A stretch of 64,000 nucleotides of DNA, taken from contig NZ_CP092427.2 of NCBI RefSeq assembly GCF_022374875.2, positions 2,232,001 to 2,296,000 on the forward strand, read 5' to 3'. Each line of letters begins with the position of its first letter. The first letter of the stretch is position 1. This stretch comes from Mycolicibacterium rufum (GTDB lineage: Bacteria; Actinomycetota; Actinomycetes; Mycobacteriales; Mycobacteriaceae). Under the pieces are notes generated by a model. The model ran no database searches, had not been told where the DNA came from, and worked only from the letters and a program-made list of their open reading frames with translations. Positions 56,359-64,000 of the stretch are shown here, one piece after another. The position numbers and the translations under genes are program-made.

Positions 56359-57156
56359 ATGGGTCTACCGTGGAAAACCGTGACTGGTCCGTACCCGGGT
56401 GAGGTGGAACTCGATTTCGCCCGCGAATGGGTGGAGTTCTACGACCCCGAAGATCCCAAGCACCTGATCGCCGCGGACCTGACGTGGCTGCTGTCGCGGT
56501 GGACGTGCGTGTTCGGCACACCGGCGTGCAAGGGCACGGTCGACGACCGGCCCGACGACGGATGTTGTTCGCACGGTGCGTTTCTCTCCGACGACGACGA
56601 CCGCGCCAAACTCGATGACGCGGTCACACTGCTCACCGATGAGGACTGGCAGTTCCGCAGCAAGGGCCTGGGCCCCAAGGGCTACCTGGAGTGGGACTCC
56701 TACGACGATGAACCCACGTTGCGGACGCGAAAGTACAAGGGCGCGTGCATTTTTCTGAACCGTCCGGGATGGCCGGCCGGGATCGGGTGTGCGTTGCACA
56801 CCAAGGCACTGAAGATCGGTGTGGAACCGCTCACCCTCAAGCCTGAGGTCTGCTGGCAGCTGCCGATCCGGCGCACCCAGGAATGGGTGACGCGGCCCGA
56901 CGGCTCGGAGATCTTGAAGTCGACGATCACCGAGTACGACCGGCGCGGTTGGGGTGAGGGCGGACTCGACCTGACCTGGTACTGCACCGGCGATCCGAAC
57001 GCCCATGTCGGGGAGAAGCCGGTGTGGCAGTCCTACGCGCCGGAGCTCACCGAGCTGCTGGGTGAGAAGGCGTATGCGGAGTTGGCGGCAATGTGCAAGC
57101 GGCGCAGCGGCTTGGGACTGATCGCGGTGCATCCCGCGACGCGGGCAGCGCAGTGA
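56359..57156 (+). CDS. Conserved Cys-rich protein (Rv0495c-like, DUF3109/YkgJ type)
   Basis: 265 residues. Cysteines are spaced as in metal- or Fe-S-binding YkgJ relatives: [31 protein letters not shown] with CALH, and WYCTGD. Near-conserved across mycobacteria at this location. ATG at 56359 is used; GTG at 56380 is an alternative with a leaderless TACCGT box. Divergent from ppx1. Function unknown. Confidence 0.8.
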
Positions 57157-57452
57157 GGGAATCGCTCTTCCTGTTCCGGTTGATCCCGCCGCGCGCGGAT
57201 TTCGCGCAGACGCTGACCGATGCCGAGCAGCACGCCATGGACGGCCACACCGAGTACTGGAAAGAACTGCTCGCCGCCGGCCGGGTCGTGGTCTACGGAC
57301 CGGTCGCCGACCCCGAGGGCGTGTGGGGGCTCGGCGTGCTGCGCGGCGCCGACCGCGCGGAGGTGCTCGCGATCGGCGAGGCCGACCCGTCGGTGCGGGC
57401 CGGGGTCACCACGTTCGAGGTGCTCGAGATCCTGGGCGGCCGGACGGGATAG
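57153..57452 (+). CDS. YciI-like protein
   Basis: 99 residues, YCII/ferredoxin-like fold: [20 protein letters not shown] and FEVLEILGG at the end. The conserved His-Asp pair of the family lies in AMDGHTEYW. Function of YciI proteins is mostly unknown. GTG at 57153 overlaps the Rv0495c-like stop (GTGA), suggesting cotranscription. The 3' end overlaps the convergent fusion gene by 47 bases. It is not at this place in M. tuberculosis as I recall it. Confidence 0.75.
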
Positions 57453-59859
57453 CGACCTGGCGCGGCGCCGCGCCGCGTCGGATCGCCGGGGCCACCGGGC
57501 GGCCCTGCAGCAACCCGGCCACGCTGCCGGCGTCGACGGCGTAGCGGTACGTCGGGAGCGCGTCGCGCACCGCGGCGACGGTGGCGTCGATGTCGTCGTC
57601 GCCGTGAGCGGCGGAGGTGACGAACGACTGGCCCAGGACGCCGCGGCGCAGCAGTTCCTGCAGGAACAGGGTGCGGTAGGCCTGCGAGGGCACGCCGTCG
57701 GCGTCGCCGGTGACGAACACCAGGCACGACGGGCGCCCGATCACCCGGATGTGGTCGGTGAGCCCCGCCTCGGCGACTGCGGCGCGCACCCCGGCGGTCA
57801 GCCGGCGGCCTGCGTGCTCCATCCGCGCGACCGGATCCTCCGTGCGGTAGGCGGCGACGACGGCGCGAAACGCCGCCAGCGACGCCGTCTCCGGGCCGTG
57901 GGTGGTGGAGAGCAGGAACACCCGGTCGGCGTCGGTGCGCAGTCCCCCGCGTTCCATGTACTCGCGCCGGCCCGCGAGTGCCGAGAGCGGGAACCCGTTG
58001 GCCATCGCCTTGCCCCAGCACGACAGGTCGGGGGTCACCCCGTAGACCGCCTGCGCACCGCCGGCTGCCCAGCGGAAGCCGGTGATCATCTCGTCGAACA
58101 CCAGCAGGGTGCCGTGCCGGTCGCACAGTTCGCGGACCCCCGCCAGGAAGCCGGGCGCGGGCTCGGCGGTCGCGGTGGCCGCCTCCATCACCACGCACGC
58201 CACGTCGTCGCCGGCCAGGACGTCCGCCAGCGAGGCGAGGTCGTTGTAGCCGAACCGCACCGTCGCCGCGGCGTGCTCGGCGGGGATGCCGCCCGCCATC
58301 GCGGTGGTCCCGATGAACCAGTCGTCGGTGGAGTAGAACGGCTGGTCGCAGATCGCGACCCGGATACGCCCGGTGACCGCGCGGGCCAGCCGCACCGCCG
58401 CCGTCGTCGCATCGGAACCGTTCTTGGCGAACTTGACCATGTCGGCGCCGGGCACCAGCGACAGGAAGTCCTCGGCGGCAGCCACTTCCAGTGCGGTGGG
58501 CCGGCTGAAGCTGACCCCGCCGGCGATCGCGCGGGTCACCGCGTCGACGACCGGCGGATAGCCGTGCCCGAGGGTCACCGAGCGCAGCCCCATGCCGTAT
58601 TCGATGTAGGCGTTGCCGTCGACGTCCCACACCCTGCAGCCGTGACCGTGCGTCAGCACCGGGGGCATCGACTCCGGGTACTGGTCGGGGCCGCGGGCGT
58701 AGGTGTGCGCGCCACCGGGCACCAGGTCGTGCAGCCGGTCCTGCAGTTGCCGTGATCCCGCGAAACTCTTCGGCTCAGAGGTGAATTCGCCGTCGAGGAC
58801 CCAGCGGCCCGCGAGCTGGGGCCACTGCGCCGACACCTCGTCCAGCAGGTCGCCGAGGGTCAGCAGGACGCGGTCGGGTGCCGCGTCGGCCAGGGCCTGC
58901 GGCGCGACGATCGGGATGTCGGTGCCCGGCATCCGCCGCCCCTGCTTGGCCGGGGACGCGTCGGCGACCGCGGCGATCAGTGACTCGTCGACACCCGCAC
59001 GGCTGAACAGCGCCACCGCGCGCGACGCAGCGCCGTAGGCGTAGACGCGGCGACCCGCGCGGCGCTCCTCCTCCAGCCAGCACCGCAGCGCCACCGTCTG
59101 CGCGTCGGCGGCGTCCTGCAGGGCCGCGACCGCCGCCGGCTCGGTGAGCCCGGCCTCGGAGTCCAGCACCGCGGCCACCGACGGTCCCGGCTCACCGGCG
59201 CCGTGCACGGCGGCCACCAGCACGGTGCCGCCGTAGAGGTCGAACGTCCACGCCTGGGCCGCCCGCATGCCGACCCGCTCCAGTTGGGTCAGCAGAGCTG
59301 CAGTCGAATAGTAGGCGAAGTGACCGTGCCGCAACGCATTCCACTGCCCGTGCCGGACGATCGCGGCCAGGCTGTGGAACTGCAGCAGCAGCACCCCGTC
59401 GGGCGCGGTGGTGGCCGCGCGCCGCGCGAAGGCCGCGTGCTGATCGGCCTCGTGCATGATGCCGAAGCAGTCGAGCACCACGTCGGCGGGGCCCTCGGAG
59501 CCCCGGTAGCCGCGCTCGGTCAGCAGCGGCAACCAGCTGCCGCCGTGCGGGCTGCCGAACTCACGGACCGTGCCGCCGGCCAGCCAACCGGCCTCCGCCA
59601 CACACCGGACCGCTTCTGCCGCCTGGTCTTTCAGAGCCTGCGGTTCGATGCCGCGCGGCTCGTCGGTCTCGGTGTCGTCCTCGGCGAGCTGGGCCAGTCC
59701 GCAGCAGGCGCACACGTCCATCGCGAGGTCGTGCCTCACCTCCGTGCCGGTGGCGGGCCGGTCGGCGGGCGGGAAGTGGTCCGCGGCGGGCACCGCGCCG
59801 AGGTCGAGCACGCGGTGCAGCCGGTGATGTCCGCAACTGCGGCAGCCGGCGGTGCTCAT
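57406..59859 (-). CDS. C-methyltransferase-like / class III aminotransferase fusion
   Basis: 817 residues in two halves. Residues 1-365 follow NovU/TylC3-type sugar C-methyltransferases: zinc-type cysteines Cys6, Cys9, Cys50 and Cys53, a Rossmann-like centre ([16 protein letters not shown]), [10 protein letters not shown] and the C-terminal domain [14 protein letters not shown]. The usual SAM motif VEIGSNDG and YHEH are altered, so methylation may be weak or lost. Residues 370-790 are a glutamate-semialdehyde-aminomutase-like PLP domain: [25 protein letters not shown] with Asp589, and the PLP Lys617 in [17 protein letters not shown]. This joint arrangement is unusual. Stop lies in the C-terminal Arg-rich tail. 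Confidence 0.85.
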
Positions 59860-60887
59860 GTCACGAATCCGCTGAAGCGGCGCATCGTCTCATCGAGTCG
59901 GCCGGCGCTCTGCAGGTGCGCCAGGCGGGCCAGCCGGGTGAACGCGGTCTCCAGATCGGCAGCCGTGAGCCCGTACCGGACATAGGCGGCCGCGAGTTCG
60001 GCGGCGCCCTCGGGCACAGAGATGTTGGCCCTGAAGCCCAGTTCGTCACGGGCACGACGGAAGTCGACCCGGTAGGAGCGCGGATCGGCGCCCGTCTCCC
60101 CGGTGATCAGCACCTCCGCACCGGGCACGACGTCGGCGACGTGCCGGGCGATCTGGGCGACCGTGACGTTGTTCACCTCGCTTCCGATGTTGAAGGCGCG
60201 GCACGCGACCACCGGCGCCGGCGCCTCCAGACAGCGCACGAAGGCCGCGGCGATGTCCCGCGCGTGCACCAGAGGACGCCACGGGGTGCCGTCGGACAGC
60301 ACCCGCACGACACCGGTCAGCACCGCAGAACCCACGAGGTTGTTCAGCACGATGTCGGCACGCAGCCGCGGCGAGAATCCGAAGGCGGTGGCATTGCGCA
60401 GGAACACCGGACTGAAGCCGGAGTCGGCGAGTGCGGCGACATCGTCCTCGACGCGCACCTTGCTGACCGCGTACGGGGTCAGGGGCCGCAGCGGAGCGTC
60501 CTCGTCGACCAGACCGTCCCCCGCGGCGCCGTACACCGAGCACGTCGAGGCGTAGCAGAACCGCCGCACCCCAGCCTCTTTCGCCAGCACAGCCAGCCGG
60601 ACCGAGGCGTGATGGTTGATGTCGTGGGTGACGCCCGGATTCAGCGCACCCAGCGGATCGTTGGACAGGGCGGCGAGGTGGATCACCGCGTCGAACCCGC
60701 GCAGCTGATCGACCGCGACGTCACGCAGGTCCACCGTCCACGCGGGCGGGTCGACGGGGCGGGGACCCAGCACGCAGTCGGCGAACAACCCGCTGTCCAG
60801 CCCCACCACCTCGTGGCCTGCCGCCTGCAGCACGGGCACCAGCACGGTGCCGAGGTAGCCCTGATGGCCGGTCACCAGAACCTTCAT
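59856..60887 (-). CDS. NAD-dependent sugar epimerase/dehydratase
   Basis: 343 residues, extended [17 protein letters not shown] (residues 7-20) binds [12 protein letters not shown] holds the Ser/Thr, and [11 protein letters not shown] the YxxxK pair. [15 protein letters not shown] and [13 protein letters not shown] are GalE/RmlB-type loops. Length and motifs fit a nucleotide-sugar epimerase, reductase or dehydratase acting on CDP- or UDP-linked sugars. ATG overlaps the deacetylase stop; the downstream fusion ATG overlaps this stop. Confidence 0.82.
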
Positions 60888-61543
60888 GCCACCGCCTCCC
60901 GTCCGAAACCGAGCACCGTCTTCTCGACGACGAACGCCTCGGCGTGCGCGCTGCGGCACTGCACCCCGCGCAGCCGCGACAGACCCAGGAACGCGTCCTC
61001 GTCGAACCAGTCGCGACCGGTCTGCGACGGATAGTGCTTGTGCAGCAGCCAGGACTTCTCCTCGGCGGTCGCGGTGTCGACCGGATGGAAGACGTTGGGC
61101 GACGGGGTGTCCGACTCCCACTTGAGGATCTCGTAGCCCAGCGTGAGGTGGTCGCGGAACTCTGTCGGGGTCAGTTCGGCAAGCAGCCGGTGATCCTGGT
61201 GGGCGTCGGCGCGCTGGGTGGTGAACACCAGCTGTGGTTCGCAGGTGCGGCGGAACGCGCGCAGACCCTCCTTCACCTCGTTCCAGTGTGCGGGCGTCTG
61301 CCCGTCGGGAAGGCCGAGCAGCGTCAGCCGCACCTGCGCGCCGGGGCAGAACGCCGCCAGTGCGGCGCGTTCCTCGGCCTCACGCACGGTGTCCGCGCCG
61401 GAGAGCACCAGCGCGTGCACCCGCACGCCCGGATGGGCCCGGCTCAGCGTGAGCAGCGTGGCGCCCATGCCGATGGCGATGTCGTCGCAGTGGGCGCCCA
61501 GCACCGCGATCTCGTGCAGCGATCCGGTCTGCAGGCCGATCAC
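60884..61543 (-). CDS. PIG-L family (LmbE-like) N-acetyl deacetylase
   Basis: 219 residues. Zinc-site motif [15 protein letters not shown] (PIG-L AHxDD) at about residues 14-28, with the second His pair in [16 protein letters not shown]. Family members deacetylate N-acetyl sugars (GlcNAc-inositol, mycothiol precursor, lipid II). GTG at 61543 overlaps the cytidylyltransferase stop (GTGA). Within a sugar cluster it most likely acts on an N-acetylated aminosugar. Confidence 0.85.
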
Positions 61544-62343
61544 GACGCGGTCGCCTTCTCGTGCTCCCACAGCGCCCAGGGCCGGTCGCCGCTGCGGTAG
61601 GCCGCGTCGAGTTCGGCGCGTTCCTTGAAGGTGTCGGCCGGCTTCCAGAACCCGAGGTGCTTGTAGCCGTACAGCTTTCCGCGGGCGGCCAGGTTCCCGC
61701 ACACGTCCTCGACCAGATCACAGTTCTCCGTGAGCATGTCGAGCACCGCGGCGGACAGCACGAAGTAGCCGCCGTTCTCCCAGATCGGCAACCGCGACAC
61801 CGGCGTGATGCCGGTGACCGCGCCGGTGTGGGGGCCGGATTCGACGACGTCGACGCAGTGGAACGACGACTGCGGCGGCACGATCAGCATCGACGCCGCC
61901 GCGCCGGAGGCCTGCACCTCCTCGATGATGTCGTTGAGCGGCGCGTCGGTCAGCACGTCGGCGTAATTGGCGAGGAAGTACTCGTCGCCCTCGAGATGCG
62001 AGCGAACCCGCCGGAGCCGTTCTCCGATGGGCGATTCCGGGCCGGTGTCGACGAACGTGATGGTCCAGTCGCTGATGTCGGTCTGCAGCAGCTCCACCTT
62101 GCCGCCGCGGATGACGAAGTCGTTGGACGCCGACTCGCGGTAGGACAGGAAGTAGTCCTTGATGTGCTCGGCACCGTAACCCAGGCACAGCACGAACTCG
62201 GTGTGCCCGAAGTGGGCGTAGTACCGCATGACGTGCCAAATCAGCGGACGCGGACCGATCATCTGCATCGGCTTGGGGATCTCGTCATCGCTGCCGTTAC
62301 GCATCCGCATGCCGTAACCGCCACAGAACAGAACGACCTTCAT
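61540..62343 (-). CDS. Glucose-1-phosphate cytidylyltransferase-like enzyme
   Basis: 267 residues. Begins VVLFCGGYGMRMRNGSDDEIPKPMQMIG, whose core GGxGxR and KPMxxIG (shown here in part: CGGYGMRMR) match RfbF-type nucleotidyltransferases; FLANYADVL has the Asp for metal binding and PIWENGGYFVLS the conserved Glu/Asn. RfbF makes CDP-glucose, the entry to CDP-3,6-dideoxyhexoses and related branched sugars. ATG at 62343 overlaps the methyltransferase stop. Exact nucleotide specificity needs assay. Confidence 0.85.
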   Translation of the reverse strand: MKVVLFCGGYGMRMRNGSDDEIPKPMQMIGPRPLIWHVMRYYAHFGHTEFVLCLGYGAEHIKDYFLSYRESASNDFVIRGGKVELLQTDISDWTITFVDTGPESPIGERLRRVRSHLEGDEYFLANYADVLTDAPLNDIIEEVQASGAAASMLIVPPQSSFHCVDVVESGPHTGAVTGITPVSRLPIWENGGYFVLSAAVLDMLTENCDLVEDVCGNLAARGKLYGYKHLGFWKPADTFKERAELDAAYRSGDRPWALWEHEKATAS

Positions 62344-63584
62344 CGGGAGTTTCCTTCCGTCAGTTCGACGACGTGCAGGGTGGGCAGGGGGTACACCAAC
62401 CGGGCGCCCCAGTCGACGGTGGCGCGCAGCTGGTCGGTGATCTCGGCCTCGAGGTTCCACGGCAGCACCACGATCACGTCGGGCCGGTCCTTGTCCAGCT
62501 GCGCCGGGTCGTGGATGGGGATACGGGCGCCCGGGGTGAATCGCCCGTGTTTGTAGGGATTCCGGTCGACGGTGTACTCGAGCAGATCGGTGCGGATGCC
62601 GCAGTAGTTGAGCAGGGTGTTGCCCTTGCCGGGCGCGCCGTAGCCGACCACCCGCTGCCCACGCGCGCGACAGTCGAGCAGGAACCGCAGCAGGTCGTGA
62701 CGGATCGTCTCGGTCCGCGGCCGCAGCCCGAGATAGCCGTCGACGCGGTGCAGCCCGGCCTCCTCCTCGGCGGCCAACGCGGCGGCGACCCGCGCCGACG
62801 GGGCCATCGCGAGTTCGGCGGGCCGCGCCCACAGGCGCAGCGACCCACCGTGCGTCGGCAGCATCTCGACGTCGACAACGGTCAGGCCGCCCGCGGCGAG
62901 CGCCCTGATCGCCGACAGCACGGTGTAGTACTGGAAGTGCTCGTGATAGACGGTGTCGAACTGGCCGAGCGCGACCAGGTTGAGCGCGTGGTGGACCTCG
63001 ATGCTCACCCAGCCGTCAGCGGCGAGCAGGGTGCGCAAGGACCGGGTGAACCCGTTCAGGTCGGGGACGTGGGCGTAGACGTTGTTGGCGACCACCAGAT
63101 CGGCGGCGCCGTGCCGGGCCCGGACGTCGGCGGCCACCTGCTCGTCGAGGAACGCCGAGATCGTCGGCACGCCGCGGCGGCGCGCCGCCTCCCCGACGTT
63201 GACCGACGGCTCGATACCCAGGCAGCCGATGCCGGCGTCGGCCACGTGCGCCAGCAGGTATCCGTCGTTGCTCGCCACCTCGACGACGAACGAATCCTCA
63301 CGCAACGCAACGCGTTCGGTCGCCTGGGCGACGAAGCGACGCGCGTGCTCGACCCAGCTGTCGGAGAACGAGGAGAAGTAGGCGTACTCGGTGAAGGTCT
63401 CCTCGGGAGTGATCAGCGCCGGAATCTGCAGCAGCAGGCAGTCCTGGCACACCCGCAGGTGCAGCGGGTACGTCGCCTCCGCAACGTCGAGTTCGTCTGC
63501 GGTGAGGAACTTCTCGCACGGCGGGGTGGCGCCGAGGTCCAGCACGCTGTGCATCCTGGCCGATCCGCACAGTCGGCACGTCAT
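62340..63584 (-). CDS. Sugar C-methyltransferase (NovU/TylC3 family)
   Basis: 414 residues. N-terminal zinc-binding cysteines Cys3, Cys6, Cys46 and Cys49, the SAM motif VVEVASNDGYLLAHV (about residues 98-112), NNVYAHVPDLNGF, catalytic-type YHEHFQYYT, HGGSLRLW and a C-terminal fold with VVGYGAPGKGNTLLNYCG. All hallmarks of active C-methyltransferases that add a methyl branch at C3 of an NDP-4-keto-sugar. ATG at 63584 overlaps the upstream partial gene (ATGA). Product would be a branched deoxysugar. Confidence 0.9.
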   Translation of the reverse strand: MTCRLCGSARMHSVLDLGATPPCEKFLTADELDVAEATYPLHLRVCQDCLLLQIPALITPEETFTEYAYFSSFSDSWVEHARRFVAQATERVALREDSFVVEVASNDGYLLAHVADAGIGCLGIEPSVNVGEAARRRGVPTISAFLDEQVAADVRARHGAADLVVANNVYAHVPDLNGFTRSLRTLLAADGWVSIEVHHALNLVALGQFDTVYHEHFQYYTVLSAIRALAAGGLTVVDVEMLPTHGGSLRLWARPAELAMAPSARVAAALAAEEEAGLHRVDGYLGLRPRTETIRHDLLRFLLDCRARGQRVVGYGAPGKGNTLLNYCGIRTDLLEYTVDRNPYKHGRFTPGARIPIHDPAQLDKDRPDVIVVLPWNLEAEITDQLRATVDWGARLVYPLPTLHVVELTEGNSR

Positions 63585-64000
63585 GACCGGCACCCCCCGG
63601 CCTGATAGCGGTAGACGGTGGTGGTCTCGTCCTGCAGCCGCACACACCACACCGGGCTGGTCGCGAATATGTTCTCGAAACGGTCGACGGTCTCCGGCGC
63701 CGCGTAGCCGAAGTAGTCGAACGCTGCCTTGGCGTCGTCGGTGAACACGAAATACGTCTCCCCTGCTGTGGTGGCGGCCTTTTCGGTGACCTGAGCGAAC
63801 TGGCCGGCGTCGGGGAACCCGTCGAGGAACCCGGGCCACCGCTCCGTGATCGGGGTGTCGAAGGAGTCGTCGTGCGCGGCCAGGTCCACCCAGGCGGCCG
63901 TGCCCCGCGTGGGCATGCCGGCCGAGTGCAGACTCCAGATGGTGGCGGGTGGGCGCGCGCCGTCGACGACGTTGTTCAACAGCGCCAGTTCCGAGGGCCG
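63581..64000 (-). CDS. C-terminal fragment of an unrecognised sugar-cluster gene (5' cut)
   Basis: The minus-strand frame is open to base 64000, so the start lies beyond the window; about 139 residues are visible. It has a helix-strand pattern with WSLHSAGMPTRGTAAWVDLA, an acidic middle, TYFVFTDDAKAAFDYFGYAA and a closing strand VWCVRLQDETTTVYRYQAGG. No hydrophobic helix in this part, so any membrane region is upstream. The end could be the soluble tail of a membrane glycosyltransferase, but this is not established. Coupled to the C-methyltransferase by a 4-base overlap. Confidence 0.6.
   Translation of the reverse strand, partial: RPSELALLNNVVDGARPPATIWSLHSAGMPTRGTAAWVDLAAHDDSFDTPITERWPGFLDGFPDAGQFAQVTEKAATTAGETYFVFTDDAKAAFDYFGYAAPETVDRFENIFATSPVWCVRLQDETTTVYRYQAGGCRS

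Follow-up and report, generated by a model that had tools for sequence, protein, structure and literature searches.

Which sugar is made by a set of five overlapping genes at the end of a 64,000-nucleotide stretch of the Mycolicibacterium rufum genome, and how far is the route to it a known one? The stretch, in the following called the window, corresponds to C1:2232001-2296000 of the 6.1-Mb genome (contig C1, NZ_CP092427.2), and the five genes occupy positions 57406-63584 of it on the minus strand. They encode a sugar C3-methyltransferase (CMT), an RfbF-like nucleotidyltransferase (CT), a PIG-L deacetylase, a sugar-nucleotide short-chain dehydrogenase/reductase (SDR) and an 817-aa fusion protein (gene 57406-59859), in which a shortened C3-methyltransferase-like half (sMT) is joined to a class III aminotransferase (AT). 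An earlier note, made from the DNA alone, had listed these domains and four-base overlaps throughout, and all four internal junctions are indeed exact ATGA/GTGA overlaps, as is the junction of CMT with the gene upstream of it (63581-63584). The note had also expected the pathway to continue past position 64000. Three family-2 glycosyltransferases are found there, behind a 702-aa and a 703-aa membrane protein, and no dehydratase was seen among the genes called. Because membrane proteins and family-2 glycosyltransferases lie upstream, the five genes are taken as the 3' end of a polysaccharide operon.

Our answer is a tentative one, held at somewhat less than an even chance: a nucleoside diphosphate (NDP)-sugar cassette of a Mycobacteriales type, ending a polysaccharide operon, whose sugar would be made by activation through CT, C4 oxidation by SDR and methylation by CMT. 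It is backed by the overlapping operon with its glycosyltransferases and membrane proteins, by the linkage of sMT and AT, and by the intact residues of CMT. Judged from the sequences, the product would most likely be a C3-methyl-branched sugar of a surface polysaccharide, aminated where AT is present. The conserved cassette consists of CMT, an RfbF-like CT, PIG-L, SDR and sMT, in most cases with an RmlC-like epimerase and frequently with a class III aminotransferase.

CMT matches the Pfam families Methyltransf_13, 23 and 14, and its closest solved relatives are MtmC, KijD1 and TcaB9 (E 1e-75 to 2e-62; MtmC is PDB 4rv9 in the methyltransferase alignment), which act on dTDP-sugars according to their PDB titles; the KijD1 and TcaB9 entries name dTDP-sugar ligands. 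For comparison, five residues of TcaB9 were taken from the titles of solved mutant structures, and their numbers were placed by counting on the KijD1 alignment row with an offset of two. CMT has the Zn-binding, S-adenosylmethionine (SAM) and C-terminal domains as well as equivalents of Y76, H181, Y222, E224 and H225, retaining the YHEH motif and the Y and H aligned with Y76 and H181.

The sMT half matches PF08421 and PF08484. Its structure model (pLDDT 91.1, built from 31 sequences) finds MtmC, KijD1 and TcaB9 structures as its 18 best Foldseek PDB matches (query TM 0.79-0.89); CMT resembles these enzymes by sequence, the sMT model by fold. Unlike them, sMT is missing part of its SAM domain and keeps only two of the five probed residues, the equivalents of H181 and H225. 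Compared with CMT, a 14-residue stretch with the Y76 position and 29-35 residues of the SAM domain are missing in all four sMT rows, and sMT reads RHGH where CMT has YHEH. RHGH and E-F-x-S-P-H-G-G are invariant in 31 sMT rows, the Y222 and E224 equivalents being R and G in every one; three zinc-type cysteines and two histidines are likewise invariant and the fourth cysteine nearly so. With two histidines but no methyl-donor site, such a protein could still enolise a keto sugar.

AT scores 680.3 bits against NF004856 (PRK06209), above the cut-off of 486, and also matches PF00202. The genome has a single PRK06209 gene, that of the window copy, and none of 14 control genomes has one. To follow its linkage with sMT, a genome collection was scanned with the fusion and the best 80 of 383 relatives, all actinobacterial by title, were kept as loci. 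Together with the two loci of M. rufum itself this gives 82 loci with flanks of 10 kb, in which many clusters are cut short. sMT is present in 37 of the 82 and sMT together with AT in 36, and in 13 of these 36 both share one open frame. All five genes were found in 20 of the 82, 17 of which also have the RmlC-like gene. In a sample of 148 genomes of the genus, sMT (counted at E <= 1e-60) was detected in 42 and the PRK06209 aminotransferase in 22; these searches scored only the best first-look candidates (13 per genome for sMT, 10 for the aminotransferase), so that absences are not proofs. Among the 22, 21 also hold sMT (hypergeometric 6e-13), and the exception, G027, is 70% complete with the gene starting at base 60 of its contig. 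In 20 of the 21 genomes one contig carries both, about 14 kb apart at most; in G163 they are on different contigs. One of the two sMT matches of G096 contains one TGA. A separate whole-genome search that started from AT loci found sMT in 19 of 19 genomes. A core role for AT was ruled out by the counts, 22 of 148 genomes against 42 with sMT.

In 16 Nocardia loci (e.g., L035:8435-9811) a protein clustered with GNAT acetyltransferases stands near, mostly just before, a separate aminotransferase, as if the new amine were acetylated; the GNAT domains come from a Pfam run on the L035 protein only.

In other bacteria another protein, DUF4910, is found where the Mycobacteriales cassettes have sMT. A tblastn search of plasmids gave CT relatives in 181 records (238 with the Shinella CT as query), and 12 loci were picked for inspection. 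Ten of them carry a DUF4910 protein (three Streptomyces, Nonomuraea and six alphaproteobacteria) and two carry sMT (Gordonia and Tsukamurella). None of the 12 has both in the stretch seen, and AT is present in nine. The partner set CMT, CT, PIG-L, SDR, RmlC-like gene and AT is matched in the DUF4910 cassettes; the window copy itself has no RmlC-like gene. Partner identity to the window proteins is 52-71% in Streptomyces (L136) and 40-54% in Shinella (L137), the L041 gene serving as the reference for the RmlC-like protein. In Streptomyces KN37, DUF4910 directly follows SDR despite the partner identity of 52-71%. A DUF4910 gene elsewhere in the M. rufum genome was ruled out at the level of E 1e-30, where no match was obtained.

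In a phylum-wide sample of 396 genomes the cassette CT was found in 13, of which five have sMT only, five DUF4910 only (1.3-1.8 kb from CT), three neither at the thresholds used and none both. In one of the three (G179) a DUF4910 piece is cut by the contig end and the CT match contains one TGA; another (G281) has three further methyltransferase-like stretches beside CMT. In this genome (G281:C1:2649000-2667000) four methyltransferase-like stretches of the same family thus lie within about 7 kb around CT, PIG-L and SDR. Five more of the 396 genomes hold DUF4910 without the cassette CT. Within the 148 genomes of the genus, DUF4910 was found in one (G082), about 13 kb from sMT and among other genes. 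The alternation of sMT and DUF4910 is a correlation in few genomes, for which only the best first-look candidates (5 or 6 per genome in the phylum sample) were scored, and not proof of the same function. We offer as a doubtful proposal, with a minor chance of being right in full, that sMT is a C3-methyltransferase turned into a SAM-free 4-keto-sugar enoliser (an epimerase or 3,4-ketoisomerase) which passes the ketone to the fused aminotransferase, DUF4910 doing the same step in Streptomyces and rhizobia as an unrelated replacement. We know of no reaction assigned to DUF4910.

SDR bears on the source of the ketone. It matches PF01370 with 151 bits, its best PDB match is 6vo6 (E 2e-28), which we take to be Cj1427, and its best NCBIfam score is that of galE (86.6 bits, below the cut-off of 262.3). 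SDR reads STCSVYG where the dTDP-glucose dehydratase of the same genome reads STDEVYG. The acidic pair of the dehydratases is absent (TCS in the window, SCS in alphaproteobacterial rows) from all eight valid cassette rows, the paralogous row SDR_L011 being left out of the count; the SDR of the second cassette (copy B, see below) also reads STCSVYG. Y..K is retained. A role of SDR as dehydratase was ruled out by the missing acidic residues, and a CDP-glucose 4,6-dehydratase elsewhere in the genome by the TIGR02622 search, whose best score was 89.7 bits against a cut-off of 278.45; in the control search one of 14 named genomes passed this cut-off. Since no such enzyme exceeds the cut-off and SDR is without the dehydratase residues, SDR probably oxidises C4 rather than acting as a 4,6-dehydratase, and this is preferred because CT, PIG-L and SDR travel together.

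In the proposed pathway CT would activate a hexose-1-phosphate. The nucleotide is probably CTP and the sugar probably something other than plain glucose; an N-acylated hexosamine would be in keeping with PIG-L as a constant neighbour. SDR would then oxidise C4 with NAD, leaving the C6 hydroxyl in place, and CMT would add a methyl group at C3, beside the 4-keto group. The RmlC-like epimerase, where present, may invert C3 or C5 of the ketone, sMT would act on the same ketone without SAM, and AT, where present, would convert a keto group to an amine. The family-2 glycosyltransferases would build the branched (amino) sugar into a repeat unit, followed by membrane transfer and polymerisation.

CT scores 183.7 bits against TIGR02623 (RfbF, glucose-1-phosphate cytidylyltransferase), its nearest curated family, where the cut-off is 300.25, and its best PDB relative is 1tzf (E 5e-43; the next one 3e-9). 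The EKP motif, which acts at the sugar-phosphate site of RfbF and stands before NGG, is missing in the window CT and in 32 of 33 aligned CT rows (L119 and L125 duplicate genes already included as L026 and L020; L037 has the letters EKP only at the C-terminus), as well as in all 12 cassette rows from two phyla, an alignment from which L147 was left out. CDP-glucose is therefore a doubtful product. The family of CT would agree with a classical CDP-glucose route, in which a 4,6-dehydratase encoded elsewhere leads to a 6-deoxy or 3,6-dideoxy branched sugar. So would the mycobacterial locus L032, the only row with EKP, where the EKP-bearing CT shares the fetched stretch with SDR, sMT and AT. With EKP gone from all other rows and no match in the genome that exceeds the cut-off for CDP-glucose 4,6-dehydratase, this route is improbable. 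The loss of EKP could also mean that CT handles a phosphate other than a sugar-1-phosphate or is a remnant; all 29 CT rows compared, from two phyla, share GGxGxRxR, PKP and the Asp residues of YxD and WxxxDT, as expected of an active enzyme, which leaves this explanation little chance. In GGxGT the T is changed to M in Mycobacteriales and Streptomyces rows and kept in Nonomuraea and in five of six alphaproteobacterial rows. In a related guanylyltransferase Lys24 and Lys157 hold the ligand in the pocket, according to the accessible part of PMC6981941; that Lys157 is the EKP lysine is only a guess. PIG-L matches PF02585 (53.1 bits, cut-off 28.2) and contains the stretches AHCDD and DAHQDH.

Several observations weigh against a sugar made by CT, C4 oxidation and CMT. 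The use of CTP by CT and the identity of its sugar are guesses, as CT stays below the RfbF cut-off. SDR could be a plain C4-epimerase. The genome encodes a GDP-mannose 4,6-dehydratase (506 bits, cut-off 415; C1:1466941-1467900) and a dTDP-glucose 4,6-dehydratase (460 bits, cut-off 365; C1:1835096-1836046). Four of the 12 plasmid loci have a gene annotated as GDP-mannose 4,6-dehydratase close to the cassette, three of them (L135, L137, L138) together with a GDP-fucose synthase; in the fourth, L139, the stretch ends inside it. Because of these enzymes, in the genome and near plasmid cassettes, a 6-deoxy-4-keto sugar could be borrowed, so that CMT, sMT and AT would act on a dTDP- or GDP-4-keto-6-deoxyhexose from elsewhere and SDR would be an epimerase or reductase, in agreement with its galE-like score and with the dTDP-sugars of the solved CMT relatives. 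The two dehydratases of the genome led us to weight this alternative up and the C4 oxidation route down. It nevertheless appears unlikely, since a borrowed substrate would not explain why CT, PIG-L and SDR stay with CMT across phyla, and both dehydratases lie far from either cassette, hundreds of kb from that of the window. As half of the sMT genomes (21 of 42) are without the PRK06209 aminotransferase, AT is a frequent but optional member, and the amino step may be optional or part of another sugar. Since the relative G337 has CT, PIG-L, SDR and the RmlC-like gene, with no CMT in the 18 kb seen, C-methylation is not obligatory. It is also conceivable that sMT still methylates, so that the sugar receives two methyl groups, as the fold match with MtmC, KijD1 and TcaB9 and the conserved cysteines and histidines would allow; the missing SAM-domain residues and Y76 stretch (4/4 rows) and the R and G at the Y222 and E224 positions (31/31) make this quite unlikely.

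The predictions of the earlier note have to be read more narrowly. A C-methylated, NDP-linked sugar stays the best reading, the CDP going back solely to the distant RfbF likeness. An aminosugar is plausible where AT is present and is no core trait, given the sMT genomes without AT and a second copy that also has none. The lack of a dehydratase from the genome, which the note had counted against its own proposal, was found for the CDP class only. Its term lineage-specific holds loosely for the sMT form within the genus (42 of 148 genomes), but Nocardia, Gordonia, Tsukamurella, Streptomyces and rhizobia have the cassette as well.

The second cassette of M. rufum (C1:3678895-3684393, L011) comprises CMT, CT, PIG-L, SDR and sMT, with an RmlC-like gene between SDR and sMT on the opposite strand and no aminotransferase in the stretch fetched. 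It is adjoined by a gene of the UDP-glucose dehydrogenase family and by one that clusters with a bacterial sugar transferase (family 31, identified by Pfam from its L041 member). In the window copy the SDR and fusion genes overlap, which leaves no space for RmlC. A hidden RmlC was ruled out by tblastn with a relative's protein: the two matches were weak (E 0.26 and 0.85) and lay outside the cassette region. Besides the RmlC-like gene of copy B, the genome has more distant ones at 1489672 and, beside the dTDP-glucose dehydratase gene, at 1836085. Three relatives (L016, L018, L021) hold an RmlC-like gene, and their CT is 92-93% identical to that of the window; in M. rufum the RmlC-like epimerase of the second copy may serve both cassettes. 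In the relative L032 the EKP-bearing RfbF-like gene and a different C-methyltransferase (L032:14709-16708) lie near SDR, sMT and AT; PIG-L was not seen in this locus, whose last 0.5 kb contains no long frame.

The cassette had been called undescribed, which is too strong. In the accessible part of PMC1413539 a table of Brucella genes lists BRA0433-BRA0439 as glutamate-1-semialdehyde aminomutase, hypothetical, UDP-glucose 4-epimerase, hypothetical, dTDP-4-dehydrorhamnose 3,5-epimerase (on the other strand), methyltransferase and glucose-1-phosphate cytidylyltransferase, which apart from the first hypothetical gene is the order of the Shinella locus L137. DUF4910 neighbourhoods were analysed in 2014 together with a crystal structure (PMC4000134, accessible part). 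There the protein (CA_C2195-type, PF16254/PF09940/PF16221) is described as metallopeptidase-like without a peptidase site and linked with a nucleotidyltransferase, an SDR epimerase/dehydratase, a sugar methylase, an N-acetyltransferase and export genes, in ten bacterial clades including actinobacteria and alphaproteobacteria, and the neighbourhoods, with Brucella and Campylobacter named, are proposed to make a modified NDP-sugar or surface carbohydrate. From its place and this naming of Brucella we infer that BRA0436 is the DUF4910 protein. The Streptomyces and rhizobial DUF4910 loci inspected here have the same partner families as the window; in contrast to them, the window and its Mycobacteriales relatives carry sMT, in the window fused to the aminotransferase. 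The accessible parts of PMC4000134 and PMC1413539 do not mention sMT, the fusion or mycobacterial clusters, and no publication on these was found in the open-access literature. An Actinoplanes paper (PMC13390465) names, in its accessible part, no cytidylyltransferase, PIG-L or aminomutase. The kind of cassette is thus known, as an uncharacterised one; new are the form with sMT and the joining of sMT to the aminotransferase.

The glycolipids of Mycobacterium kansasii contain kansosamine, a 3-C-methyl 4-amino sugar and likewise a branched amino sugar of mycobacteria, but a 6-deoxy one. For the oxidation step there is a proven route in capsule heptoses, where a dehydrogenase oxidises C4 and epimerases and C4-reductases act next (PMC10680097, accessible part). 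In the Campylobacter Cj1427 route to GDP-heptoses described there, the 4-keto sugar arises via C4 oxidation, and the window SDR is likened to it by sequence only; the route differs in using GDP and a heptose, and the accessible text has no C-methylation, PIG-L or class III aminotransferase.

The surroundings of the cassette fit a polysaccharide locus (see table). The 702-aa membrane protein has 11 hydrophobic segments in a Kyte-Doolittle scan and no Pfam match, and is a probable polymerase or membrane glycosyltransferase of the operon. The 703-aa protein, which carries the GH16 domain, has 12 such segments and appears flippase-like by eye; its family (family 51) has six members among the loci, its own included. 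Beyond the glycosyltransferases follow a response-regulator-like gene (by eye) and a histidine kinase, presumably resembling RegX3 and SenX3. On the other side the YCII-domain gene converges with the fusion gene, their 3' ends sharing 47 bases (57406-57452); its neighbour, which we take to be Rv0495c-like, had been described as followed by a regulator-type gene, in whose place the YCII-domain protein is encoded. The Rv0495c-like gene (family 13) occurs on 18 stretches, those of 17 relatives and of the window locus, and eight relatives have a SenX3-like kinase (family 34) on theirs. As both recur beside cassettes, the interval looks like a recurrent mycobacterial polysaccharide site.

Table. 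Genes of the cassette and neighbouring features, in window positions unless a locus is named
Feature	Position	Strand	Basis
CMT, sugar C3-methyltransferase, 414 aa, complete	62340..63584	-	Pfam and PDB relatives
CT, RfbF-like sugar-1-phosphate nucleotidyltransferase, 267 aa	61540..62343	-	TIGR02623 below cut-off; PDB 1tzf
PIG-L deacetylase, 219 aa, GTG start	60884..61543	-	PF02585
SDR, sugar-nucleotide oxidoreductase/epimerase, 343 aa	59856..60887	-	PF01370; PDB 6vo6
sMT half of the fusion, residues 1-362, shortened C3-methyltransferase-like	58774..59859	-	PF08421 and PF08484
AT half of the fusion, residues 363-817, class III (HemL-like) aminotransferase	57406..58773	-	NF004856, PF00202
702-aa polytopic membrane protein, C-terminal end in the window	63581..64000, on to 65689 (L009:10582-12690)	-	Open reading frame
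Membrane protein with C-terminal GH16 glycoside hydrolase domain	L009:12683-14794, just past the window end	-	
YCII-domain gene	57117-57452	+	Pfam

The occurrence of a shortened methyltransferase in the place of DUF4910 narrows the reaction of DUF4910 and gives a small, testable set of enzymes. If the product is a branched amino sugar with its C6 hydroxyl left in place, environmental mycobacteria, Nocardia and rhizobia would have one more type of surface sugar.

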